A DNA stretch of 64,000 nt from Tsukamurella conjunctivitidis (lineage in GTDB: Bacteria > Actinomycetota > Actinomycetes > Mycobacteriales > Mycobacteriaceae): assembly GCF_007858475.1 (NCBI RefSeq), contig NZ_VIGX01000007.1, positions 1 to 64,000 on the forward strand, in the 5' to 3' direction. The notes below the pieces were generated by a model. The model was not told where the DNA came from. It was given only the letters and a program-made list of their open reading frames with translations, and did no database searches. The translations under genes were made by a program, and so were the position numbers. Below, piece by piece: positions 1,107 to 12,264 of the stretch. The number at the start of each line of letters is the position of its first letter. Within the stretch, counting starts at the first letter, position 1.

Positions 1107-1928
1107 TCAGAGGACGATCTGGCGGTTCACGTCCTTGTACAGCAGGTACCGGAAGTTCGACGGTCCGCCGGCGTAGCAGGCCTGGGGGCAGAAGGCGCGC
1201 AGTGACATGTAGTCGCCCTCCTGGACCTCGACCCAGTCACCGTTGAGGCGGTACACCGCCTTGCCCTCGAGGACGTAGAGGCCGTGCTCCATGACGTGCG
1301 TCTCGGCGAACGGGATCGACGCGCCCGGTACGAAGGTCACGATGTTGCAATGCATGTCGTACGCGAGATCCTGCGGATCCAGGATCCGGGTCGTGCGCCA
1401 CTTGTTGTCGGTGCCCGGCATCGGCGACGGCTCGATGTCGCGCTCGTTGCCGACCGCGGTCCGCGGGGTGTAGCCGGCGAGCGGCTCGTAGCGCTTGCGG
1501 ATCCACTGGAAGACGGCGGCGCCGTCGGACGTGTTCGCCACGGACCAGGGCGTCCCGGCCGGGATGTAGGCGTAGCCGCCCGACGTGAGCGAGTGCGTCG
1601 TGCCGTCGATGGTCACCTCGAGCTCGCCCTGCGTCAGCAGCAGGAAGCTCTGGACCTCGGGCTGGGGCTCCGGCGCGTCCGAACCGCCGCCGGCCCCCAC
1701 CTCGACGATGGACTGCGCGAAGGTCGTCGCCCCGCCGGCCACCGGCCGGTTGAGCACCCACGCCCGGGTGTTCGTCCATCCCGGGAAGACCGAGGTCACG
1801 ATGTCGCGCATGACGCCGCGCGGAATCACGGTGTACGCCTCGGTCACGATGGCGCGGTCGGTGAGCAGGTCCGTCTGCGGCGGGTGGCCGCCCTGCGGCG
1901 AGTAGTAGACGGGTGCGGACGAGCTCAT
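1107..1928 (-). CDS. allE: (S)-ureidoglycine aminohydrolase (bicupin)
   Basis: This 273-residue protein contains two cupin domains. The second carries the signature of ureidoglycine aminohydrolase: FAETHVMEHGLYVLEGKAVY, then GDYMSL, then a C-terminal YKDVNR. The enzyme is Mn-dependent and releases ammonia from (S)-ureidoglycine to give ureidoglycolate in allantoin breakdown. The start is the ATG at 1928, preceded by GAGGAG; it overlaps the stop of the upstream DUF6986-like gene in ATGA, implying coupled translation. Allantoinase and allantoate amidohydrolase are not in the window, so the rest of the pathway must be encoded elsewhere. Expression is probably driven by the operator-bearing promoter at about 3220-3245. 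Confidence 0.92.
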   Translation of the reverse strand: MSSSAPVYYSPQGGHPPQTDLLTDRAIVTEAYTVIPRGVMRDIVTSVFPGWTNTRAWVLNRPVAGGATTFAQSIVEVGAGGGSDAPEPQPEVQSFLLLTQGELEVTIDGTTHSLTSGGYAYIPAGTPWSVANTSDGAAVFQWIRKRYEPLAGYTPRTAVGNERDIEPSPMPGTDNKWRTTRILDPQDLAYDMHCNIVTFVPGASIPFAETHVMEHGLYVLEGKAVYRLNGDWVEVQEGDYMSLRAFCPQACYAGGPSNFRYLLYKDVNRQIVL

Positions 1929-3196
1929 CGGGTCTCCTCGTGGGGGGTGGTGGAGCGGTTCAGGGCGAGATCGCGGACCGTGTCGACGGTGACCTCGGCC
2001 GCGGCGCGGACCTCGGTGTCGGTGAGCGCCCCGCATGTCACGCCGCGGTGGATGAAGGATGCGAGTGCCCGGGCGGTGGCGGGCTCGTCGAGGATCGCGG
2101 AGTCGATGCGGTGCACGTAGTTGCGCAGCCGCGTCGCCGCGGCCGGGAAACCGTCGCGGTAGAAGGCGTAGGTCGCGAGGAAGCGCGTGACCAATTGGGC
2201 GGGATGCAGGTCCCAGCCCTGGTAGATGCCGCGTTCGAGGTGCCGGCGTACGAGGCGCGCGTGGAGCCGCCACGCCTCGGCGACGTGGACGGGATCGCCG
2301 ACCGGCAGGATGTTCGTGGAGCCGTCGGACATGTGCACGCCCGTGCCGGCGATCGCGAGCTGCATGATGTTCTTGGCGTGATCCGCCGCCGGGTGCTCCA
2401 TCGACTGGTACTGCGCGGCGATGCCGAGCGAGGCCGAGTAGTCGTAGGTGCCGTAGTGCAGCGACGTGACGCGGCGGTCGGCGGCGTGCAGGAGAGTCGC
2501 GACCGGCGCCGTGCCATCGGCACCGAGGATGACCTGTGGGGTCTCGACCTGCACTTCGAAGCGCACCCGGCGCTCGTCGAGTCCGAGCGCGCTCTCCAGT
2601 GCGCGGCTCGCGTCGACCATCGCCTCGACCTGGCCGACAGTGGTGACCTTCGGCAGTGTGATGGTCAGCCCCGCGGGGAGCGGCCCGGCCGCAGCGAGGC
2701 CGCTCACGAACAGGTCGAGCGTCCGCAGGCCGCGGGCGCGCACCGGTGCCTCGAAACACTTGAACCGGATGCCGACGAAGGGCGGAGCCGAGCCCGCGCG
2801 GACGGCGGCCGACACCGCCTCGACGGCACGCGCGACATCGGCGTCCTCCGCGGCGTCACCGCGGTCACCGTAGCCGTCCTCGAAGTCCAGACGCAGGTCC
2901 TCGATCGGTTCGTCGTTCAGCTTGCGCCGTACCAGGTCCGGGAGATCCGGATCGTTGAGGCCCAGGGCGCGCGCCACCTCGGCCAGCCCGCCCGCGGCGT
3001 CCGCCGCCGCAAGGGCCTGTTCGCCCCATTCCCGCGCGGTCGCCGGGGTGTACCGGTCCGCGGGAAGGTAGACGGTGTGCACGGGCTGGCGGCGTCCGTC
3101 GTCGCCCGGGTAGTCGCGCGCCAGCAGATCATCGGTGGCGGCCAGCCGACGCTCGATCGCGGCCAGGGCGTCGTCGGTGAGCGAGCGGCTGGGCAT
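1925..3196 (-). CDS. HpcH/HpaI aldolase/citrate lyase-like protein (DUF6986 type)
   Basis: A 423-residue protein resembling the TIM-barrel aldolase/citrate-lyase superfamily. Visible motifs are LRLDFEDGYGDRG (acidic metal-site region), GIRFKCFE, ITLPKV, QVETPQ, LHYGTYDYSASLGI and WDLHPAQL. It looks like a family that databases leave as DUF6986 and that often sits with actinobacterial purine genes. The reaction is not known to me; handling of glyoxylate or a C2/C3 product of ureidoglycolate is a reasonable inference. A strong GGAGGT lies just before the ATG at 3196. The gene leads a two-gene operon with allE. Confidence 0.75.
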   Translation of the reverse strand: MPSRSLTDDALAAIERRLAATDDLLARDYPGDDGRRQPVHTVYLPADRYTPATAREWGEQALAAADAAGGLAEVARALGLNDPDLPDLVRRKLNDEPIEDLRLDFEDGYGDRGDAAEDADVARAVEAVSAAVRAGSAPPFVGIRFKCFEAPVRARGLRTLDLFVSGLAAAGPLPAGLTITLPKVTTVGQVEAMVDASRALESALGLDERRVRFEVQVETPQVILGADGTAPVATLLHAADRRVTSLHYGTYDYSASLGIAAQYQSMEHPAADHAKNIMQLAIAGTGVHMSDGSTNILPVGDPVHVAEAWRLHARLVRRHLERGIYQGWDLHPAQLVTRFLATYAFYRDGFPAAATRLRNYVHRIDSAILDEPATARALASFIHRGVTCGALTDTEVRAAAEVTVDTVRDLALNRSTTPHEETR

Positions 3197-3217: not shown

Positions 3218-3243
3218 GGAAAAGTAATTCCGTATGGTGGAGT
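3218..3243. promoter_or_regulatory. Purine-regulon operator A (DUF6986-allE promoter)
   Basis: GGAA-N6-TTCC (3218-3231) is followed directly by TTCCG-N5-TGGAG (3228-3242). The same composite occurs at 9463-9487. On the minus strand TACTTT (3226-3221) could be the -10 of the downstream operon, so the element would overlap the promoter. The likely ligand is the IclR protein encoded at 11500, which is inference. The rest of 3197-3301 holds no gene. Confidence 0.6.
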
Positions 3244-3301
3244 CTACGCCGATTCGATGCTCCGCACAAGGAATTCGCGACGCGGTCCCGTCGGATGAGG
3301 G

Positions 3302-4585
3302 CTAGGCGGACACCTCGTCGCCGCCGATCCAGACGCGCGCCACGTCGGCGGGCGTCGCCAGCGAGAAGATCTTCGCGAGAGCGTTCTCCGCCGACTCGGC
3401 GTGCCGGAGGCCCACGTCCAGCGGATGCCCCTCCGTCGGCCGGATCAGGAGCGCGTCGAACTGGCGTCCGACGGACAGGTCGCCCACCTCGTCGAGTCCG
3501 AGCGCGGTCGCGCCGGCACGTGTCGCCAGGTGCAGCAGGTGCGCCGCGGTGAGTGGGACGCCGTCGGCCTGCAGGAGCTGCTGCATGAAATAGGCCTGGA
3601 GACCCTCTTTGAAGAGGGAGAAGCCGCTGCCGGCGCCGACGTCGGTACCCAGGGCGACGGTGACGCCGTGGTCGAGGTGGCGCCGCAGCGGGAAGGACCC
3701 ACTGGCCAGGGCCGAGTTCGAGGTGGGGCAGTGGGCCACCGAGGCCCCGGCGGACGCCATCAGTGCGAGTTCGGAATCGGTCGGATGCGCGTTGTGCGCG
3801 AGCACGGAACGCTCGTGGATCAGGCCGTGACGATGGTAGGTGTCGAGGTAGTGGGCCGACCCCGGGAACTGGTCGATGACCGCCGCGATCTCCGCGGGAT
3901 TCTCGTTGATGTGCGAGGTGAACCAGAGGCCGGGGACGTCCGCCGCGAGCGCTGCGCCGCTCTCGAGCATCTCGGGCGATGTCGAGTACGAGAAGCGAGG
4001 GGTCACGGCGTAGCGGAGGCGCCGGTGGCCGTGCCAGCGCTCCGCGAGTTTGCGCCCCTCGTCGTACGACCTCGCCGGGGTGCTGAGCAGGGGCTCCGGG
4101 AGGTTGCGGTCGCTGGTCACGAGCCCCGCCGTGACTCGCACCCCCACCCGGTCGGCTTCGGTGAACAGCGCATCGACGGCGTCGGAGAAGTGCGAGCCGA
4201 AGACCAGGGCCGTCGTGGTGCCCGCGGCGGTGAGTCCCGTGAGGAACTCGCGCGCCACCGAGCGGGCGTACTCGGCGTCCGCCAGCCTGCATTCCTCGGG
4301 TAGCGCGCACCGGTCGAGCCAGTCCAGCAGCGGCATGCCGAGCCCGCCGATGGCCCGGATCTGCGGGTAGTGCACGTGCGTGTCCACCATGCCGGGCAGG
4401 AGGACGCCGTCGCGCAGGTCGACCACCTCGTCGTCGGGCCGGCGTTCGGCGATCGTGCGGAAGTCGCCGCGCTCGGCGATGGTGCCCGCCTCGACCGCGA
4501 TTCCTGCGTCGTCGTGCGCCCGCAGTTCGCCTCCGGTGAAGGGATTGTCGGGCGTGTCCAGGACACGACAGCGGTAGATGGTCAT
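3302..4585 (-). CDS. guaD: Guanine deaminase
   Basis: This 427-residue amidohydrolase converts guanine to xanthine and ammonia in the cytoplasm. Metal and catalytic motifs appear in order: DTHVHYPQ near the N terminus (HxH zinc ligands), FTSHINENPAEI (His and Glu), ERSVLAHNAHPTDSE, and GTDVGAGSGFSLF (Asp ligand). The length and the PxxR-x-IGGLGMPLLDWL segment are typical of GuaD. The ATG at 4585 overlaps the xdhC stop and has AAGGAGA upstream. It is the last gene of the xdhA-xdhB-xdhC-guaD operon, so its product xanthine feeds the enzyme encoded just upstream. Confidence 0.95.
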   Translation of the reverse strand: MTIYRCRVLDTPDNPFTGGELRAHDDAGIAVEAGTIAERGDFRTIAERRPDDEVVDLRDGVLLPGMVDTHVHYPQIRAIGGLGMPLLDWLDRCALPEECRLADAEYARSVAREFLTGLTAAGTTTALVFGSHFSDAVDALFTEADRVGVRVTAGLVTSDRNLPEPLLSTPARSYDEGRKLAERWHGHRRLRYAVTPRFSYSTSPEMLESGAALAADVPGLWFTSHINENPAEIAAVIDQFPGSAHYLDTYHRHGLIHERSVLAHNAHPTDSELALMASAGASVAHCPTSNSALASGSFPLRRHLDHGVTVALGTDVGAGSGFSLFKEGLQAYFMQQLLQADGVPLTAAHLLHLATRAGATALGLDEVGDLSVGRQFDALLIRPTEGHPLDVGLRHAESAENALAKIFSLATPADVARVWIGGDEVSA

Positions 4586-5391
4586 GAGGGGTCTCCTTGT
4601 ACGGCCGAGGGGAAGCGGGCGAGCAGGTCGGCGGCCACGCTCACGGCGATGGTCGCCGGGTGCTTGCCACTGAGGGTGCTCAGCCCGATGGGTGATTGGA
4701 TGGTGTCGATGGTCGCGGCGTCGTGCCCGGACTCGGCGAGCATCGTGCGGAAGCGAGCCCACTTGGCCGAGGAACCGATCAGCCCGACGCTGCCCAGGCC
4801 GGGTGTGCGCAGGACCTGATCGCAGAGGCTGAAGTCCTCGGCGTGGTCGTGGGTCATGATCAGGACGTGGGCGCCCGGCGGCAGGTCCTCGAGGATCTCC
4901 TCGGGAAGCACCGAATGGTGCAGGTGCACCGTCGCCTCGCCGGGCTCCAGAGCGCGCGCCGCCTCGATCTGCTCGGGGCGCGAATCCGTGAGGTGGAGCT
5001 CGATGTCGTGGCGGGACAGGATGCGCGCGAGTTCGAGGCCCACGTGTCCGACCCCGAAGATCGCGACCGCCGGTACCACCGGGAGCGGCTCGAACAAGAG
5101 AACCACCTCGCCTCCACAGCATTGCCGCCCGTGTCGATTCCGGGCCTTGTCGTTCAGTCGCAGGGTGAGGGTCTCCGGCACGGAGATCGCTTCCGCGAGC
5201 AGCTCGCGCGCCCGATCGACGGCCGTGAGTTCCAGGTTGCCGCCGCCGATCGTGCCGAGCACGGCGTCGGCGGTGGCGATCATCTTGGCGCCCGGCTCGC
5301 GTGGCGCGTGTCCGCGCACCCCGATCTGTGTGATCAGGACCGCGGGTACGCGGTGCCGGCGGAGGCGGGCGGCGTCGCCCAACCAGGTCAT
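4582..5391 (-). CDS. xdhC: XdhC-family molybdenum cofactor chaperone
   Basis: A 269-residue XdhC/CoxI protein. In known systems it binds molybdopterin cofactor, promotes its sulfuration and inserts it into xanthine dehydrogenase. The N-terminal domain shows GTIGGGNLE and CCGGEVVLLFEPL. The C-terminal Rossmann-like domain begins VAIFGVGHVGLELARIL and contains MTHDHAEDF and GLIGSSAKWARF, then SPIGL. It lies between xdhB (7-bp gap) and guaD (4-bp overlap). Confidence 0.93.
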   Translation of the reverse strand: MTWLGDAARLRRHRVPAVLITQIGVRGHAPREPGAKMIATADAVLGTIGGGNLELTAVDRARELLAEAISVPETLTLRLNDKARNRHGRQCCGGEVVLLFEPLPVVPAVAIFGVGHVGLELARILSRHDIELHLTDSRPEQIEAARALEPGEATVHLHHSVLPEEILEDLPPGAHVLIMTHDHAEDFSLCDQVLRTPGLGSVGLIGSSAKWARFRTMLAESGHDAATIDTIQSPIGLSTLSGKHPATIAVSVAADLLARFPSAVQGDPS

Positions 5392-5398
5392 GGTGGGC

Positions 5399-7843
5399 TC
5401 AGCCGAGCGGTGCGGGGGCCGTTGCCGCCGAGGCGGTATCGGCCGCCGGTGCCCCGGTTGGAGGCCGACCGTTGCGGGACGGATCGTTCGGCTCCACGGG
5501 GTGCGCGGGCAACGCCGACCGCGCGGCCTCCAGCGCCCAGTAGACGGCCTCGGGCGTCGCCGGGGAGGCGAGCTCGACGGAGACCCCGGCCGGGCCGAAG
5601 GCCGCCGCCGCCTGGCGCAACGCCTCGCGGACCGAGAAGGCGAGCATGAGCGGCGGCTCGCCGACGGCCTTGGACCCGTAGACCGCCCCGTCCTCGTGAG
5701 CCTTGTCCAGCAATGAGACCCGGAAGTCCGGCGGCATCTCCGAAAAGCTCGGCAGCTTGTAGGTGCTGGCGGATTGTGTCAGCAGCCTGCCGCGGGTGGG
5801 GCGGTCGCTCTCGTCCCAGCGGAGGTCCTCCAGGGTGAGCCACCCCGCACCCTGTACGAAGCCGCCCTCGATCTGACCGATGTCGATCATCGGTGAGAGC
5901 GAGTCGCCCACGTCGTGCACGATGTCCACGCGCCGTAAGCGGTACGCACCGGTGAAGCCGTCGACCTCGACCTCGCTGGCGGCCACGCCGTAGGCGAAGT
6001 ACTTGAAGGGCTCACCCTGCATCGCCTTCGCATCCCAGTGCAGGCCCTCCGTGCGGTAGTACCCCGAGGCGGAGAGTTGAACCCGCTGGAAGTACGCGGC
6101 GTGGACGACCTCCTCCCAGGTCAGCTTCTGGGCCGATGCGCCGAGGCCGCTGATCGTGCCGTCGCTGAACCGCACGTCCGCGGCGTTGGTGCCGATGAGC
6201 GATGCGGCGACCGCGGCGAGGCGATCGCGGATCTGTTCGCAGGCGTTCTTGACCGCGCCGCCGTTGAGGTCGGCGCCGGAACTGGCCGCCGTGGCGGAGG
6301 TGTTGGGCACCTTGTCCGTCCGGGTCGGCGCGAGCCGCACGCGCGCGAGTGGCACGCCGAGCGTCGTGGCGGCCACCTGCAGCATCTTCGTGTGCAGGCC
6401 CTGGCCCATCTCGGTACCGCCGTGGTTGATCAGGACCGATCCGTCCTTGTAGACGAGGACCAGTGCGCCGGCCTGGTTGAACGCGGTGAGGTTGAAGGAG
6501 ATACCGAACTTCACCGGGGTCAGGGCGAGGGCCCGTTTGACGTTGGGATGCGCGGCGTTGAAGGCGGCGATCTCCGCCTCACGGGTCTCGACCTCTCCGG
6601 ATTCCACGACCTGCTCCCACGCCGTGCGCACCCGATCGGCGTGGCGCACGGGCTGGCCGTACGGCGTGGTCTGGTCGTCGCCGTAGAAGTTGCGGCGCCG
6701 CAGCTCGCGCGCGGACACGCCGAGGCGCGGGGCGCAGGTGCCGAGGATGTCCTCGATGACGAGCATGCCCTGGGGGCCGCCGAAACCGCGGAACGCGGTC
6801 TGCGAGGTCTTGTGGCACTTCGCGATCCGCCCGTGGACCGCGATGTTCGGGATCCAGTAGGCGTTGTCGATGTGGCAGAGGGCCCGCGCCAGGACCGGCT
6901 CGGAGAGGTCCAGGCTCCACCCGCCGTCGGCGGTCAGGGTGGACTCGAGGGCGGTGATGAGCCCGTCGGCGTCGAAGCCGACGCGCCAGCTGGCGTGGAA
7001 GCCGTGCCGCTTGCCGGACATGGTCATGTCCTGGGTGCGATCCAGCCGAAGTCGTACCGGCCGGCCCGTCAGCGTGGCGCCCAGCGCGGCGATCGCGGCG
7101 AAGCCGTGTGGCTGCATCTCCTTGCCGCCGAAGGCCCCGCCCATGCGCAGGCACTGCACGGTGACGGCGTTGCTGGGGAGACCCAGCACGTGCGCCACGA
7201 TGTCCTGCGTTTCCGACGGGTGCTGGGTACTGGACTGGACGAAGATCTGCCCGCTCTCGTCGACCTGCGCCAGAGACGCGTGCGTCTCCAAGTAGAAATG
7301 CTCCTGACCCGCGAACTCGAACTCGCCGGTGTACACGTGAGCGGCCTCGCGGAACCCGGTGTCGGGGTCGCCGCGGCGGACCGTCGGACGGGCGCCGTGG
7401 AAGCTCTCCGCGGCGATGGCGTCGCCGACCGAGACGAGGGAGGGGAGCGGCTCGAGCTCGAGTCGCACCGCCGCGGCGCCGAGCCGCGCGGCCTCGAGCG
7501 TCTCGCCGAGCACCCAGCACACCGCGTGTCCGTAGAACATCACCTCGTCCTCGGGGAACAGAGGTTCGTCGTGCTTGACCCCGGCGTCGTTCACGCCCGG
7601 GACGTCGGCCGCGGTGAGCACCCGGACGACCCCGGGGATGCGCAGAGCGGGCGCGGTGTCGATGGAGACGATCCGCGCGTGGGCGCAGTCGGACTGGACC
7701 GGGTGTGCGTGCAGCGCGCCGGGCGTGCGCCCGACGAGGTCGTCGGTGTACAGCGCCGCGCCGGTCACGTGCAGCATCGCGCTCTCGTGCGGGATCTCCT
7801 GCCCGACGACGGGATTCGTGGGACGTTCGGAAAGGTGGCTCAT
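5399..7843 (-). CDS. xdhB: Xanthine dehydrogenase, molybdopterin-binding subunit
   Basis: The 814-residue large subunit oxidises hypoxanthine/xanthine to urate at the Mo centre. It contains the aldehyde oxidase/xanthine dehydrogenase a/b hammerhead domain (about 15-130) and the Mo-binding region. Motifs are GQEHFYLETHASLA, MGGAFGGKE, TAFRGFGGPQGM (substrate-positioning Arg) and a C-terminal GSKAVGEPPL with the catalytic Glu. The set HGFHASWRVGF/NFYGDDQTTPYGQ is typical of true xanthine dehydrogenases. The ATG at 7843 overlaps the xdhA stop in ATGA. Confidence 0.96.
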   Translation of the reverse strand: MSHLSERPTNPVVGQEIPHESAMLHVTGAALYTDDLVGRTPGALHAHPVQSDCAHARIVSIDTAPALRIPGVVRVLTAADVPGVNDAGVKHDEPLFPEDEVMFYGHAVCWVLGETLEAARLGAAAVRLELEPLPSLVSVGDAIAAESFHGARPTVRRGDPDTGFREAAHVYTGEFEFAGQEHFYLETHASLAQVDESGQIFVQSSTQHPSETQDIVAHVLGLPSNAVTVQCLRMGGAFGGKEMQPHGFAAIAALGATLTGRPVRLRLDRTQDMTMSGKRHGFHASWRVGFDADGLITALESTLTADGGWSLDLSEPVLARALCHIDNAYWIPNIAVHGRIAKCHKTSQTAFRGFGGPQGMLVIEDILGTCAPRLGVSARELRRRNFYGDDQTTPYGQPVRHADRVRTAWEQVVESGEVETREAEIAAFNAAHPNVKRALALTPVKFGISFNLTAFNQAGALVLVYKDGSVLINHGGTEMGQGLHTKMLQVAATTLGVPLARVRLAPTRTDKVPNTSATAASSGADLNGGAVKNACEQIRDRLAAVAASLIGTNAADVRFSDGTISGLGASAQKLTWEEVVHAAYFQRVQLSASGYYRTEGLHWDAKAMQGEPFKYFAYGVAASEVEVDGFTGAYRLRRVDIVHDVGDSLSPMIDIGQIEGGFVQGAGWLTLEDLRWDESDRPTRGRLLTQSASTYKLPSFSEMPPDFRVSLLDKAHEDGAVYGSKAVGEPPLMLAFSVREALRQAAAAFGPAGVSVELASPATPEAVYWALEAARSALPAHPVEPNDPSRNGRPPTGAPAADTASAATAPAPLG

Positions 7844-9321
7844 GACAGCTCCTCTCGGGCCTGGTCGTCGGCGAACAGCTTCTCGAGCGAGCGGCCCAGC
7901 ATGGCCACCCGGTAGCGTCCGGAGGCCCGGTGGTCGTCCATCGGCGTTCCCTCGGCGCGCAGCACCTCGGCGGCCGCACGGACGGTGTCCTCGGACCAGG
8001 GCCGGCCGAGGAGTGCACGTTCGGTCGCGGTCGCCCGCAACGGGGTCGCGGCGACGCCGCCGAGCCCGATCGCTGCACGCGTGATCGTGCCGTGCTCCAC
8101 CGTGAGGGCGAAGGCGACGGCGACGCTGGAGATGTCGTCGAAGCGCCGCTTGGCTATCTTGTGGAAGGCCGTGAGCGGGTTCAGCGGCAAGGGGATCCGG
8201 ACGGCTTTGATGAGTTCGTCGGGGCGGCGCACTGTCGCGCGGTAGCCGGTGAAGTAGTCCGCGAGCGGGACGGTGCGCTCACCGTCGCGCGAGGCGAGGA
8301 CCAGGCGGGCTTCCAGCGCCAGCAGCGCGGGTGGTGTGTCGCCGATCGGAGAGCCCGTTCCCAGGTTGCCGCCCAGCGTCGCGGCGTTGCGGATCAGGCG
8401 GGAGGCGAACTGCGGGAAGAGCTGGGCGAGGAGCGGCACGCGGCCGTCGAGGCGACGCTCGATCTCGGACAGCGTCAGCGCCGCACCGATCTCCAGTTCG
8501 TCGTGTGCCCAGCGCAGTTCGCGCAGCTCCGGCAAGCGGTCGATGGCGACGACGAGGGGCTCGCGTCGCCCCTTGAGGTTGACGTCGACACCGAAGTCGG
8601 TGGAACCGGCGACGAGGACGGGGGAGTCGTCGCCGGCGAGGAGATCGAGTACCTCGCTCAGGCCGGCGGGCCGGACGAACCGGCCCTGCGGGCCGGTGAT
8701 CTCGGTGGGGGTCGCAGCGGGGGCCGCGGCGGTGCGACGGGCCGCGAGCGGATCATCGGGCGCGGGTTCGGAGGGAAGGCCGTACGCCGCGTCCCTGATC
8801 GGTCGATAGCCGGTGCAGCGGCACAGGTTCCCGGAGAGCGAGTGCAGGTCGAAGCCGTTCGGACCGTGCTCGTCGTCGTGGTCGCCGCACTCCCCGGCAG
8901 GGCCCCCGGACGGCGCCCGATCGGGGCGGTAGAACTCGGCGGCCATGCTGCAGATGAAGCCGGGCGTGCAGTAACCGCACTGGGAACCCCCGCGCAGCGC
9001 CATCGCGGTCTGGACCGGATGCGACTCGTCCGGCCCGCCGAGTCCCTCGGAGGTGACGACCTCCTGGTCGGCAAGGGCGGCGGCCGGCGTGAGGCAGGCG
9101 TTGATCGCGGTCCACCGGGTCCGGTCGTCCGGGGCCTCGGGATCCCCGGGGCGGGCGACGAGAATCGAGCAGGCGCCGCATTCCCCCTCGGCGCAGCCCT
9201 CCTTGGCCCCGGTGAGGCCCTGGTCGCGAAGCCAGTCGAGGGCACTCGTGTGCACCGGGCCGGTGAAGGGTCGGGATCGACCGTTCACGGTCACATGACA
9301 TCCGGTCAGCGTTTCGGTCAC
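7840..9321 (-). CDS. xdhA: Xanthine dehydrogenase, FeS/FAD subunit
   Basis: A 493-residue fused small subunit. It has an N-terminal plant-type [2Fe-2S] domain (GCAEGECGACSI), a second [2Fe-2S] domain (QCGYCTPGF and LSGNLCRCTGYRP), then an FAD domain with VAGSTDFGVD and ATLGGNLGTGSPIGD. It passes electrons from the Mo site to NAD+. A Gly/Asp-rich insertion precedes the last cysteine pair. I chose the GTG at 9321 because it gives the usual short N terminus; an ATG at 9426 would add 35 residues that do not look like the family. It is the first gene of xdhA-xdhB-xdhC-guaD. Confidence 0.92.
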   Translation of the reverse strand: MTETLTGCHVTVNGRSRPFTGPVHTSALDWLRDQGLTGAKEGCAEGECGACSILVARPGDPEAPDDRTRWTAINACLTPAAALADQEVVTSEGLGGPDESHPVQTAMALRGGSQCGYCTPGFICSMAAEFYRPDRAPSGGPAGECGDHDDEHGPNGFDLHSLSGNLCRCTGYRPIRDAAYGLPSEPAPDDPLAARRTAAAPAATPTEITGPQGRFVRPAGLSEVLDLLAGDDSPVLVAGSTDFGVDVNLKGRREPLVVAIDRLPELRELRWAHDELEIGAALTLSEIERRLDGRVPLLAQLFPQFASRLIRNAATLGGNLGTGSPIGDTPPALLALEARLVLASRDGERTVPLADYFTGYRATVRRPDELIKAVRIPLPLNPLTAFHKIAKRRFDDISSVAVAFALTVEHGTITRAAIGLGGVAATPLRATATERALLGRPWSEDTVRAAAEVLRAEGTPMDDHRASGRYRVAMLGRSLEKLFADDQAREELS

Positions 9322-9461
9322 CGCTGCATCCCTACTGAACCGCGGCACGCGGTTCCGACAGGCATGGTTTGCGAGGCTGAGCTGGACCGCTGGTTTTCCA
9401 TGCGAACACGATCCAGTGCATTTCATGATAGGTGACGGGAGTCACATCGGGAAGGTCTTTT

Positions 9462-9488
9462 CGGAATATTCTTTCCGCATCACGGAGT
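9462..9488. promoter_or_regulatory. Purine-regulon operator B (xdh operon promoter)
   Basis: CGGAA-N6-TTCCG (9462-9477) is followed by TTCCG-N5-CGGAG (9473-9487), the same overlapping composite as operator A. It lies about 140 bp upstream of the xdhA GTG, in a 209-bp gap with no convincing gene. Binding by the IclR protein is inference. Confidence 0.6.
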
Positions 9489-9530
9489 TGTGCGGCGGAG
9501 GTGGATCCGGCCACGCTGCGCCGTTGCAGC

Positions 9531-11039
9531 TCAGCCGCTGATGAACGCGGTGATCGGCCCTCGGACGAAGTAGAGGATGAACCCGACCGAGACCGCCCAC
9601 AGTAGCCAGTGCGCCTTCTGTCCGCGACCGCTGAGGACGCTCAGGAGTGCCCAGGTGATGAAGCCCACGCCGATGCCGTTCGCGATCGAATAGGTCAGGG
9701 GCATGGTGACGATGGTGAGGAAGGCGGGCAGGGCCACCGAGAAGTGGGTGAAGTCGATATCCCGGATCTGCGCCACCATCATCGATCCGACGACCACCAG
9801 CGCGGCCGCGCCCACCTCCATCGGGATCACCCCGATGAGCGGCGCGAAGAACATCGAGCCCAGGAAGAGCACGCCGGTCACGCAGGCTGCCAGGCCCGTG
9901 CGCGCGCCCTCCGCGATGCCCGACGCCGAGTCGACGAAAACGGTGTTCGACGAGCCGGAGGTGGCGCCGCCGGCGACCGCTCCCATGCCCTCGATCACGA
10001 AGGCGGAGCGGATCCGCGGGAAGGTGCCGTCGGCTTGGCCGACGCCGGCCTGGCGCGCGAGGCCCGTCATCGACCCCATGGCGTCGAAGAAGTTCGTGAA
10101 GACCAGTGTGAAGACCAGCATCGTCGCTGCCAGAGCGCCCACGCGCTCGAAGGCCCCGAACAGGTCGAACTGTCCGATCAGGCCGAAGTCGGGGAGCGCG
10201 ACGATATGGCTGGGCAACTCGGGTGCGCTGAGATTCCAGCCCTTCGGGTCCGGATGGTTGGGGTCGCCGACCGTGCCGAGCTTCGCGAAGTGCTGGATCA
10301 CGATCGCCGCAAGGGTCGCAACGATCATGCCGATGAGGATGGCGCCGGGGACGCGGCGCGAGACCAGCACCGCGATGAGCAGCAGCGCGAAGATGAAGAC
10401 GGCCGTGGGCAGCGCGTCGATCGAGCCGTCGTGGCCCAGTTGTACCGGTGGCCCGGCCGGCGTGCGCGTGACGAAACCCGAGTTCACGAAGCCGATGAAG
10501 GCGATGAGCAGGCCGATGCCGACGGTGATGGCGGTCTTCAGCTCCGCGGGTACCGCGCGGAAGATCGCGGTCCGGATGCCGGTCGCACCCAGAACCACGA
10601 TGATCACGCCGTTGATGATCACCAGGCCCATCGCCTCCGGCCAGGTCACGTCCTTGACCACCGCCACCGCGAGGAAGGAGTTCATCCCCAGGCCGGCGGC
10701 GAGCGCGAACGGGAGGCGTGCGACCAACCCGAAGAGGATCGTGATCACGCCCGCGGTCAGGCCCGTGACCGCCGTGACCTGCACGAATCCGAGGGTTCCC
10801 TGCGCGGCATCGGACGAGCTGCTCAGGATGAGCGGGTTCAGCACGACGATGTAGGCCATCGCGACGAAGGTGACGAGACCGCCGCGGATCTCGCGGGGGA
10901 TCGTCGAGCCGCGGCGGGTGATCTCGAAGAAGCGATCCAGGAACGGCGTGCCCGCGGGATCCGGGCCGTCTTTCCGGTCGATGGCCACGGGGGGTGCGAC
11001 GTGTTCGTCGGCCCCGTTCTGCTCTTGCTGGCTGGTCAT
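9531..11039 (-). CDS. NCS2/AzgA-type purine permease
   Basis: A 502-residue multispanning transporter of the AzgA-like branch of nucleobase:cation symporters, probably bringing in hypoxanthine, adenine or guanine. AzgA-type motifs are present: AAGLGMNSFLA near TM3, TNFFDAMGSMTGL, and SGSSNTVFVDSASGIAEGARTGL. The first 40 residues are hydrophilic and cytoplasmic. The ATG at 11039 is preceded by AGAGGACC. The gene is transcribed toward xdh and has its own operator cluster at 11169-11194, separated by a leader of about 130 bp. The exact base preference cannot be read from sequence. Confidence 0.9.
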   Translation of the reverse strand: MTSQQEQNGADEHVAPPVAIDRKDGPDPAGTPFLDRFFEITRRGSTIPREIRGGLVTFVAMAYIVVLNPLILSSSSDAAQGTLGFVQVTAVTGLTAGVITILFGLVARLPFALAAGLGMNSFLAVAVVKDVTWPEAMGLVIINGVIIVVLGATGIRTAIFRAVPAELKTAITVGIGLLIAFIGFVNSGFVTRTPAGPPVQLGHDGSIDALPTAVFIFALLLIAVLVSRRVPGAILIGMIVATLAAIVIQHFAKLGTVGDPNHPDPKGWNLSAPELPSHIVALPDFGLIGQFDLFGAFERVGALAATMLVFTLVFTNFFDAMGSMTGLARQAGVGQADGTFPRIRSAFVIEGMGAVAGGATSGSSNTVFVDSASGIAEGARTGLAACVTGVLFLGSMFFAPLIGVIPMEVGAAALVVVGSMMVAQIRDIDFTHFSVALPAFLTIVTMPLTYSIANGIGVGFITWALLSVLSGRGQKAHWLLWAVSVGFILYFVRGPITAFISG

Positions 11040-11168
11040 GGTGGTCCTCTCGGTCCGAAACGCCGGGCGGGTGCCCGTCGCGTTCAGGCGCTCCGGGGAG
11101 CGACGGCGAAGTGGGGCTGATCGAAGGCGACGCGTGGTGGCTATCGCGTGGGGCTCCGCAGATCTGCG

Positions 11169-11194
11169 TTCCGCCCATCGGAAATGTGATTCCG
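11169..11194. promoter_or_regulatory. Purine-regulon operator E (permease promoter)
   Basis: The clearest site of the set. It has TTCCG-CCCAT-CGGAA (11169-11183, perfect 5-bp arms) overlapping GGAA-ATGTGA-TTCC (11180-11193), so half-sites alternate about every 10-11 bp. This periodicity suggests two dimers on one face of the helix. The rest of 11040-11499 holds promoters and operators but no gene I can support. Confidence 0.65.
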
Positions 11195-11341
11195 ATCACG
11201 TCGAGTGAAGCACGCGCTCCAGGGGCTGTCAAGCACATGTTCTCCGGGATTCTCGCCGACTTCCGCCGTGCGCCAACATGTACCAGCTGAACCCTCTGCA
11301 CGGGGGCTGAGCTTCAGTGGGGCGATGGCCCGTGGGCGTGA

Positions 11342-11430
11342 TTCCGTATCGTGGTAGCAGATTTTCAGTCATCAGGCGTGATTGAGGCGTGCTGTCGGCC
11401 GCGGATCGACCGCGATACCGCAATACGGAA
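11342..11430. promoter_or_regulatory. Operators C and D upstream of the iclR-type gene
   Basis: TTCCGTATCGTGG lies at 11342-11354. The same motif in reverse orientation, TTCCGTATTGCGG on the minus strand, lies at 11418-11430. Site C shares a 14-bp word (ATTCCGTATsGTGG) with operator A. The position ahead of the regulator's own start suggests autoregulation. A TANNNT hexamer (11347-11352) sits inside site C. Confidence 0.55.
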
Positions 11431-11499: not shown

Positions 11500-12264
11500 A
11501 TGGCGGGGAAGTCCACGTCCGGGGTGCAGTCGGTGGAGCGCGCCTTCGAACTGCTCGAACTCATGGGGCGCGCCGGAGGCGAATGCTCGCTCAGTGAACT
11601 GTCGGCGGGGACGCCGTTGCCGCCGCCCACGATCCACCGCCTGCTGCGCACCCTGGTGGGCATCGGCTACGTCCGCCAGCTGCCGAACCGGCGCTACGCA
11701 CTCGGTCCGCGGCTGATCCGCCTCGGCGAGGTCGCGAACCGCCAACTCGGCGCCGTCGCGGTGCCGGTGCTGCAGTCCCTGGTCGACGAGCTCGAGGAGA
11801 CCGCGAGTCTCGCGGTGCTCGACGGCGACATGGTGATCTACACCGGACAGGTGCCCTCGCAGCACAGCATGCGCACGAACAACGAGGCAGGCCGCCGCGT
11901 CAATCTGCACAACAGCGGTGTCGGCAAGGCCGTCCTCGCGGAGCTCGACGACGCCCGCATCGTCAAACTCGTGGGGCAGGCCGGGATCCCTGCGCCGACG
12001 CCCAACAGCGTGAGCACTCTCTCCGGCGTCTTCGCCGAGGTCGAGAAGGTCCGCGCGCGCGGCTACTCGATCGACGACGAGGAGCAGGAGGCGGGGGTGC
12101 GCTGCTACGCCATGGCGGTGCCGGGCGCGCCCACCCCGATGGCCGTCGGGATCTCGGGCCCCGTCTCCCGGCTGAGCGACGACTTCGTCGATCGCGCGAT
12201 CCCCGCCCTGCAGCGCGCCACCGGGATCATCTCCGACGCCCTGATCGGCGCCCGCGAGATCTGA
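11500..12264 (+). CDS. IclR-family regulator of purine/allantoin catabolism (AllR-like)
   Basis: This 254-residue protein has an N-terminal winged-helix HTH (about 5-70; SVERAFELLELM, PPTIHRLLRTLVGIGYV) and a C-terminal IclR effector domain (about 80-250; SLAVLDGDMVIYTGQVPSQHSMR, HNSGVGKAVLA, YSIDDEEQEAGVRCYAMAVPG). The ATG at 11500 follows GGGGAGG and gives the usual length; the ATG at 11437 lacks a Shine-Dalgarno sequence. It is divergent from the permease and adjacent to the whole purine cluster. By analogy with AllR it is probably a repressor relieved by a pathway intermediate such as allantoin or glyoxylate. That role and its binding to the TTCCG-N5-CGGAA sites are inference. Confidence 0.88.
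   Translation: MAGKSTSGVQSVERAFELLELMGRAGGECSLSELSAGTPLPPPTIHRLLRTLVGIGYVRQLPNRRYALGPRLIRLGEVANRQLGAVAVPVLQSLVDELEETASLAVLDGDMVIYTGQVPSQHSMRTNNEAGRRVNLHNSGVGKAVLAELDDARIVKLVGQAGIPAPTPNSVSTLSGVFAEVEKVRARGYSIDDEEQEAGVRCYAMAVPGAPTPMAVGISGPVSRLSDDFVDRAIPALQRATGIISDALIGAREI

Follow-up and report, generated by a model that had tools for sequence, protein, structure and literature searches.

A shared three-box operator defines a regulon of purine and allantoin catabolism in Tsukamurella conjunctivitidis. The IclR-family protein encoded at 11500-12264 of the window (the whole 64,000-nucleotide stretch analysed here) is quite probably its regulator, working like AllR/IclR through the mechanism proposed below. 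This type of control is already known, and the regulon is a clear new example of it. Among the matches listed in our literature search, which covered few subscription journals, no title or abstract opening described such a regulon in Tsukamurella, Gordonia or Mycobacterium. Our study provides a concrete and testable purine-use regulon, whose operator is usable for scanning, for the group to which Gordonia and Mycolicibacterium also belong.

A composite operator at purine and allantoin promoters

The relevant features of the window are the following.

1107..1925, minus strand: allE, (S)-ureidoglycine aminohydrolase (profile match)
1925..3196, minus strand: DUF6986 protein, a distant HpcH/HpaI (citrate lyase/malyl-CoA lyase type) relative (PF22484, 558.3 bits; PF03328, 25.8 bits)
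3218..3242, plus strand: composite operator of DUF6986-allE, GGAAAAGTAATTCCGTATGGTGGAG, overlapping both the presumed start point and the last bases of the -10-like TAGACT
3241..3269, minus strand: predicted promoter of DUF6986-allE, TTGTGC (3264-3269), 17 bp, TAGACT (3241-3246)
3302..4585, minus strand: guanine deaminase (TIGR02967, above cut-off)
4582..9321, minus strand: xdhC-xdhB-xdhA, xanthine dehydrogenase and accessory protein (profile matches; presumed GTG start of xdhA)
9432..9445, no strand assigned: second palindrome, GTGACGGGAGTCAC, between the xdh operator and the -10-like TATCAT; GTGA-N6-TCAC in 11 of 12 genomes
9463..9487, plus strand: composite operator of xdh, GGAATATTCTTTCCGCATCACGGAG, present in relatives at one mismatch or fewer
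9531..11039, minus strand: nucleobase permease (PF00860)
11169..11193, minus strand: composite operator of the permease gene, GGAATCACATTTCCGATGGGCGGAA, directly downstream of TTGACA-N17-TTCACT
11185..11200, no strand assigned: second palindrome, TGTGATTCCGATCACG, overlapping the permease operator; GTGA-N6-TCAC in 10 of 11 genomes
11204..11232, minus strand: predicted permease promoter, TTGACA (11227-11232), 17 bp, TTCACT (11204-11209)
11342..11356, plus strand: weak site ahead of iclR, TTCCGTATCGTGGTA, two mismatches to TTCCG-N5-CGGAA
11416..11430, plus strand: probable autoregulatory site ahead of iclR, TACCGCAATACGGAA, one mismatch to TTCCG-N5-CGGAA
11500..12264, plus strand: IclR-family regulator of 254 aa, the presumed operator-binding protein (PF09339, helix-turn-helix, 61.6 bits; PF01614, effector domain, 106.6 bits)

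The initial annotation had placed a TTCCG-N5-(C/T)GGA(A/G) motif or a close variant at five places, and all five carry it, with coordinates accurate to within 1-2 bases. The overlap with GGAA-N6-TTCC that it described at three of them also holds, each being a perfect copy of the 25-bp composite GGAA-N6-TTCCG-N5-YGGAR (3218-3242, 9463-9487 and 11169-11193). At one mismatch or fewer, the window contains three composites, against a mean of 0.09 and a maximum of 1 in 100 dinucleotide shuffles. By itself, TTCCG-N5-YGGAR gave four matches at three places, since the palindrome at 11169 is readable on both strands (0.66 expected; four reached in 1 of 100 shuffles), and GGAA-N6-TTCC gave three (0.24 expected; three reached in 1 of 100 shuffles). 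At two mismatches or fewer, matches to TTCCG-N5-CGGAA are no more frequent than chance (31 against 36 expected). With chance matches so plentiful at that looseness, the two weak sites upstream of iclR were counted solely on the strength of their recurrence at equivalent positions across the aligned genus sequences: TTCCG-N5-YGG stands at 11342-11356 in 9 of 11 aligned sequences (absent in G014; G008 not alignable), and TACCGC-N-ATACGGAA at 11416-11430 in 9 of 11, the other two being variants.

Across the 5.07-Mb genome, all four perfect composites lie at purine or allantoin promoters, the sole one beyond the window being located between allantoin-permease-type and allantoinase genes. Two of the six one-mismatch composites precede the hyi-gcl and uraD-uricase gene sets and four lie elsewhere; at two mismatches or fewer the count (115 against 98 for the control) is near background. 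The 15-bp palindrome TTCCG-N5-CGGAA has six perfect places, three of them at purine or allantoin genes, and 135 places at one mismatch or fewer, against 57 for the reversed control. Since the palindrome was too common at one mismatch, the 25-bp composite replaced it for the genome scan; the composite is the discriminating form of the operator, and the simple palindrome discriminates poorly genome-wide. A lack of motif enrichment at purine genes, which would speak against a regulon, was thus not what we found, because the composite clusters at urate, allantoin and glyoxylate genes in this genome and in its relatives. The regulon proposed from the shared operator is therefore borne out, but it is wider than the one cluster and reaches two further contigs.

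Conservation of the operator with the iclR gene

In 25 genomes, including that of the source, there were 48 perfect composites and none for the reversed pattern. Of these, 44 were at cluster genes, 40 (28 + 12) placed by gene position at DUF6986, xdhA, permease or allB/allP starts and four by sequence and distance only; the remaining four were elsewhere. The DUF6986-allE operator is present at one mismatch or fewer in 11/11 relatives with the same gene order, and the boxes at uraD and at hyi are each kept in 12/12 genomes. The iclR gene occurs in 14 of 16 Tsukamurella genomes, including the source, and the two without it (G007 and G006, the latter 93% complete in 890 contigs) have no site, no xdhB and no hyi.

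Orthologues in Gordonia and Mycolicibacterium retain the site at DUF6986/iclR and allB/allP. Of the 80 loci drawn upon for the intergenic comparison, the DUF6986/iclR pair was divergent and 30-600 bp apart in 29 and the allB/allP pair in 25. At two mismatches or fewer, the site was present in 28/29 DUF6986/iclR regions (3/580 shuffles) and in 25/25 allB/allP regions (1/500 shuffles), so that an operator at allantoin genes across genomes, as expected of an AllR-type regulon, was found. The form GGAA-N6-TTCCRY-N3-RYGGAR was perfect in 21/25 and 9/29 of the allB/allP and DUF6986/iclR regions, respectively.

Among 298 genomes from the order, 29/65 with an IclR match (E <= 1e-70) and 29/233 without one carried a perfect copy of the relaxed site (Fisher p 7e-8, uncorrected for genome size and kinship). 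For the nine genomes whose IclR protein has at least 76% identity, a cut-off picked post hoc at a gap in the identities, the figures were 8/9 against 50/289 for the others, G247 being the close-orthologue genome with no perfect site. The putative recognition helix, T44-L52, is invariant in 81 sequences except at L48 (F in five). Most Arthrobacter and Microbacterium loci have no copy at one mismatch or fewer beside iclR, yet the helix is identical there; copies in Microbacterium are mostly ahead of uraD. Perfect copies directly downstream of iclR occur at three Sinomonas loci (L189, L200, L209) and one in Cryobacterium (L228). The sites, their conservation, the gene content and the co-occurrence with the regulator gene are all matters of observation, and by association (gene and site tracking each other across the genus, helix conserved) the neighbouring IclR protein is the likely binder.

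Proposed mode of regulation

Regarding operator binding, promoters, sign of regulation and effector, we infer the following. An IclR dimer, possibly re-pairing over the three boxes, would occupy GGAA-N6-TTCCG-N5-YGGAR. The alternating half-sites had been read as implying two dimers per promoter; this does not follow, because three alternating boxes spaced by about 10 bp fit one dimer that re-pairs or a shared middle box. At DUF6986-allE, the permease gene, uraD and hyi, the site is predicted to span the -10 to the early transcribed region and would most likely block initiation by that position. The protein may also bind the weaker sites at its own gene. Its release might then be brought about by a compound late in the pathway (glyoxylate, allantoate or ureidoglycolate), and would jointly switch on uptake along with xanthine dehydrogenase, uricase, allantoinase, allE-DUF6986 and the glyoxylate-to-glycerate genes.

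The xdh site does not fit simple blocking. It lies upstream of the -10, centred about 57 bp before the start point implied by TATCAT (9425-9430, minus strand) with a poor -35, so activation or another form of repression is possible there. This position, together with the best NCBIfam equivalog match of the protein, the reported activator BhcR (NF045644; 156.9 bits, below the cut-off of 350) (PMC11323563), would suit a protein that chiefly activates these genes, in the manner of BhcR or PobR/PcaU. We consider this unlikely, as the site lies across or beyond the predicted -10-like element at DUF6986, the permease gene, uraD and hyi, which is a blocking position.

Alternatively, the purine half might be chiefly under a second, presumably CRP/FNR-like regulator at GTGA-N6-TCAC, with the three-box site a minor modifier there. 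This palindrome overlaps the core promoter in 12/12 uraD and 12/12 hyi regions, besides those of xdhA and the permease gene at the frequencies listed above, and occurs in 0/12 DUF6986 and 0/10 allB/allP regions. However, the three-box sites are equally conserved at the same promoters, the two sites are not mutually exclusive, and of five GTGA-N6-TCAC copies in the window (shuffle mean 0.68) three are away from these genes; dominance of a second regulator thus seems quite improbable. GlnR-mediated nitrogen control may be an additional input, because tables in a nitrogen-starvation/glnR study of Mycobacterium smegmatis include uricase, transthyretin-family and xanthine-uracil permease genes (PMC4222082).

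That another regulator in trans (a second IclR-type or a PucR/TetR-type protein) binds the three-box sites while the adjacent IclR protein acts otherwise would agree with the likeness of motifs among IclR-family members (PMC8222616) and with the perfect relaxed sites in order genomes without this IclR regulator, but is very unlikely given that genomes of the genus have either both site and iclR or neither, that the sites recur ahead of iclR itself, and that in Tsukamurella, Gordonia and Mycolicibacterium iclR adjoins the core with both helix and site conserved.

Other readings of the uraD site and of the conserved xdhA leader were also considered. Treating the uraD site as coding (upstream ATG, MSFFDEW...) was rejected because the frame has a stop codon in 4/12 genomes. 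In the xdhA leader, no leader-peptide frame is maintained across all 12 genomes; for an RNA structure, RNAalifold gave 31 pairs, only two of them with two-sided changes, and an unhelpful covariation term (+0.43). Against Rfam, the leader reached no family at cut-off, and a lax search gave one chance-level lncRNA match only. Its covariance model matched 3 of 298 order genomes, two from Tsukamurella and a third, at 43 bits, from a different family; this last match falls within an open frame of 445 aa whose third positions look coding.

DUF6986 and the extent of the regulon

DUF6986 is present in 75 of 80 orthologous loci; allE accompanies it in all 75, and the two are adjacent on one strand in 71. 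The allE product also exceeds the cut-off of NF040771, a model named bifunctional allantoicase/(S)-ureidoglycine aminohydrolase. XdhA falls below the TIGR02963 cut-off (409.5 against 467 bits), with a match spanning nearly its full length. Searched against PDB profiles, DUF6986 matched malyl-CoA lyase alone, and weakly (E 0.06). Of 20 genomes, only G023 matched the AllA lyase family PF04115, and then partially (27.6 bits) and some 1.7 Mb away from iclR; none matched allantoicase PF03561, but neither did any control genome, so this absence carries no weight. DUF6986 is a candidate for a missing allantoin-pathway step. A malate synthase role is less likely, because in Kocuria L180 and Arthrobacter L188 the interval from DUF6986 to iclR holds a true malate synthase and a malic enzyme gene; a malic enzyme gene is also found in the third locus examined, Microbacterium L190. 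The literature searched, with few subscription journals covered, yielded no mention of DUF6986.

The conserved core of the regulon consists of allantoin genes; those for xanthine and urate form an extension, and the promoters of the latter have the second palindrome, GTGA-N6-TCAC, in common. Speculatively, the core (iclR, DUF6986, allE, racemase, allantoin permease and allantoinase) could make up a complete allantoin pathway, with the divergent HpcH/HpaI-type DUF6986 supplying a late step that is otherwise missing, most likely the cleavage of ureidoglycolate to glyoxylate. Genes for xanthine, urate and the conversion of glyoxylate to glycerate would have joined in Tsukamurella under a double gate of the three-box site and the repressor-like palindrome GTGA-N6-TCAC; we regard this full picture as rather unlikely. 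The analysis places an uncharacterised family inside the allantoin pathway, and the division into core and extension promoters illustrates how regulons might expand.

Comparison with known IclR-family systems

The 11500-12264 protein has the N-terminal HTH, C-terminal effector domain and approximate length (about 250 aa) of the IclR family. Alternating three-box sites have been described for 32 IclR groups by Suvorova and Gelfand 2021 (PMC8222616), combining a TTYCR...YGRAA pair with a GRAA...TTYC pair. The three perfect window sites have the same arrangement of three alternating half-sites in two overlapping palindromes, kept in relatives. Autoregulation is the rule in the family according to the same source, which agrees with the sites ahead of iclR. 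In contrast to those operators, the centre here is not A/T-rich, and relative to the group 1 motif WTTYCRYW3RYGRAAW the 11169 site also departs at one R/Y position. The usual distance of 20-80 nt from operator centre to gene start (PMC8222616) is seen at only two of five sites, uraD (26 nt) and DUF6986 (34 nt), the others lying at 95 (hyi), 142 (permease) and 154 nt (xdhA).

Like the system proposed here, that of Streptomyces coelicolor pairs an IclR-family protein, AllR (Navone et al. 2015, cited in PMC12772271), with genes of the allantoin pathway in an actinobacterial host. E. coli AllR, of the same family, controls gcl and allantoin genes (PMC11323563), and its published operator, KTTGGAAWAWTWTTCCAAC, contains GGAA-N5-TTCC (PMC8222616, Table 1). 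However, our protein scores 105.1 bits against the E. coli-type AllR equivalog NF007548, below the cut-off of 406. The pocket residues at 143, 146, 154 and 220, which are Met, Met, Leu and Leu in E. coli AllR (PMC11323563, Table 1), are Ser123, Thr126, Val134 and Val200 here; furthermore, Ala161 and Ser239 are replaced by Val141 and Gly217, and Gly140, Asp192 and Ser219 are kept. The glyoxylate-responsive BhcR of Paracoccus denitrificans likewise is without the hydrophobic patch, but it differs in being an activator of a different pathway (PMC11323563).

Composite operators in the purine cluster and the rest of the genome

The initial annotation placed TTCCG-N5-(C/T)GGA(A/G) at five places, three of them overlapping GGAA-N6-TTCC, and all five are present in the window. 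The three strong sites each form a single 25-bp three-box element, GGAA-N6-TTCCG-N5-YGGAR (the composite), of which shuffled windows predict 0.09 occurrences when one mismatch is allowed. The two sites upstream of iclR, whose product is presumed to bind the composite, have match counts in the window no different from chance; in alignment they recur at the same position across the genus.

Window genes (identified with NCBIfam and Pfam) and operator sites
1107-1925, minus strand, allE
1925-3196, minus strand, DUF6986 protein gene
3302-4585, minus strand, guanine deaminase gene
4582-9321, minus strand, xdhC, xdhB and xdhA
9531-11039, minus strand, nucleobase permease gene
11500-12264, plus strand, iclR
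3218-3242, plus strand, composite site, no mismatch
9463-9487, plus strand, composite site, no mismatch
11169-11193, minus strand, composite site, no mismatch
11342-11356, one-palindrome site before iclR, two mismatches
11416-11430, one-palindrome site before iclR, one mismatch

A whole-genome scan (5.07 Mb) found four perfect composites, namely the three window sites and C209:3737-3761 on another contig, flanked by an allantoin-permease-type gene (below model cut-offs) and an allantoinase gene (over cut-off). Six copies carry one mismatch. Two lie on contig C332, one upstream of hyi-glxR-gcl-glycerate kinase and the other upstream of uraD, the first gene of a set that continues with hiuH, uricase and a xanthine permease; the four elsewhere are unexplained. 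All four perfect copies and two of the six one-mismatch copies sit at purine, allantoin or glyoxylate genes, matching the clustering that the initial annotation proposed as a check. At up to two mismatches, the pattern is close to background (115 matches versus 98 for the reversed pattern).

Directly upstream of the allantoinase gene on C209, 168 bp from the divergent composite, lies a second perfect TTCCG-N5-CGGAA (L016:3905-3919); thus, allB may possess an operator of its own. Elsewhere in this genome, a composite bearing one mismatch and containing a perfect palindrome (L026, C110:786958-786982) precedes a gene that was named lipoprotein-like by eye and has no obvious connection to purines.

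Conservation in the genus and the order

Across 25 genomes, own included, 48 perfect composites occur in 16, the reversed control giving none. By gene position, 28 of 32 inspected loci lie at the start of DUF6986, xdhA, the permease gene or allB/allP, where the neighbourhoods of relatives place 12 further copies; four more (G001, G003, G005, G010) look like the allB/allP site, judged by sequence and distance only. Four lie outside cluster genes (G028:510146, G023:141086, G005:224687, G010:112743), the last two within open frames with coding-like third positions. Alignments of 11 to 12 genomes each show the boxes as conserved islands at the permease/iclR, xdhA, DUF6986, uraD and hyi promoters. 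A regulon reaching beyond the window is supported. The iclR gene is present in 14 of 16 Tsukamurella genomes; G006 and G007 lack both it and the composite, with no xdhB or hyi match, and in G006 (93% complete) the only uraD-like match is at 45%.

Order-wide, the relaxed composite (GGAA-N6-TTCCRYN3RYGGAR) occurs perfectly 69 times in 58 of 298 genomes (reversed control, 5), counts uncorrected for genome size or kinship. An IclR match at E <= 1e-70 exists in 65 of these genomes, 29 of which have the perfect site, as do 29 of the other 233. Among the 9 genomes with IclR identity of at least 76%, a cut set afterwards at a gap in identities, 8 have it, versus 50 of the remaining 289. In all eight, the coordinates put a site no more than about 6 kb from iclR. 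Because of the remaining matches, the relaxed pattern by itself is not specific at this breadth. Recurrent three-box sites without such an IclR match were seen in G143, G193, G233 and G301 (GGAANNNNTCTTCCATGGTGCGGAA) and in G050, G278 and G317 (GGAAACGGTATTCCACTTCACGGAA), and may serve other regulators of the IclR type.

The iclR, DUF6986 and allE genes are mostly linked in Arthrobacter, Kocuria and Microbacterium, and copies with up to one mismatch are mostly absent beside iclR; the exceptions are perfect copies directly downstream of iclR in Sinomonas (L189, L200, L209) and Cryobacterium (L228). In most Microbacterium loci, a copy with one mismatch precedes uraD. Drift or relocation of the operator is probable in these three genera.

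An allantoin core with a purine extension

G009, G012 and G023 retain iclR, DUF6986-allE and allB/allP, together with sites bearing no more than one mismatch, and show no xdhB or hyi match. A six-gene core (allB, allP, an Asp/Glu/hydantoin racemase-family gene, allE, DUF6986 and iclR) occurs in most Gordonia and Mycolicibacterium loci examined. Counting only divergent pairs 30-600 bp apart in 80 loci, the relaxed composite there at up to two mismatches is found in 28 of 29 DUF6986/iclR regions (3/580 shuffles) and 25 of 25 allB/allP regions (1/500 shuffles), perfectly in 9 and 21, respectively. Since core and sites persist without xdhB or hyi, and in Gordonia and Mycolicibacterium, the IclR protein would be first of all an allantoin regulator, and allantoin or a compound downstream of it is a more probable effector than urate or xanthine.

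Of 80 orthologous actinobacterial loci, 75 carry DUF6986 (three of the five without it are shorter than 17 kb and may be cut), always with allE; in 71 the two genes share a strand and are no more than 150 bp apart. A search of 20 genomes for the ureidoglycolate lyase family PF04115 gave no match in 19. Its association in these loci would place DUF6986 late in the allantoin pathway, as a candidate enzyme for a missing late step; weak HpcH/HpaI and malyl-CoA lyase similarity suggests a fold of that class. In Kocuria L180 (6703-9759) and Arthrobacter L188 (6746-9833), a malate synthase gene and a malic enzyme gene lie between DUF6986 and iclR, and in Microbacterium L190 (8377-9768) a malic enzyme gene does, which suggests that glyoxylate is routed to malate and pyruvate in those loci.

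A second palindrome, GTGA-N6-TCAC, which matches the half-sites of CRP/FNR-type proteins, is confined to the purine side among the promoters compared. It overlaps the core promoter of uraD (12/12), hyi (12/12), xdhA (11/12) and permease (10/11), and was found in 0 of 12 DUF6986 and 0 of 10 allB/allP regions, mononucleotide shuffles giving 1-4 per 550-600 with regions of unequal length. The window holds five, two at these promoters and three elsewhere (mean 0.68, maximum 3 in 40 dinucleotide shuffles).

GTGA-N6-TCAC at purine-side core promoters
window 9432-9445
window 11186-11199
locus L050 7531-7544
locus L050 10857-10870

The xdhA leader (9322-9416, minus strand), between the -10-like element and the GTG start, has 93% mean column identity in 12 Tsukamurella genomes and could fold into a 5′ helix (CTGGAYC/GRTCCAG) plus a terminal hairpin. 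It has no Rfam match at cut-off; against 298 order genomes, its covariance model matched two Tsukamurella genomes and, outside the genus, one coding frame.

Operator mechanism and comparison with known IclR systems

Judged from sequence alone, DUF6986 is preceded by a predicted promoter TTGTGC-17-TAGACT (minus strand), whose start point and -10 end lie under the operator, and the permease gene by TTGACA-17-TTCACT (minus strand), with the operator directly downstream. For uraD and hyi, the alignment read by eye shows TTGACG and an element resembling a -10 before the operator or touching it. Operators at these four genes would occupy blocking positions. At xdh, the -10-like TATCAT (9425-9430) lies 33 bp past the operator's downstream edge, so activation may occur there.

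The mechanism in the initial annotation is partly revised: it had two dimers per promoter, which three alternating boxes about one helical turn apart do not require. Suvorova and Gelfand (PMC8222616) report three-box sites in 32 orthologous groups, read as possible alternative dimerisation modes; this architecture is thus already known.

Pocket positions were mapped by alignment to the glyoxylate site of E. coli IclR, where nine tabulated letters agree and five oxygen-binding positions are listed (PMC11323563, Table 1). Several are variable among 81 orthologues. Glyoxylate is a possible effector, as is a larger ureido acid. Of the five oxygen-binding positions tabulated there for E. coli IclR, three are kept in our protein (Gly140, Asp192, Ser219) and two are changed, to Val141 and Gly217. 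Its patch is more polar, being made up of Ser123, Thr126, Val134 and Val200.
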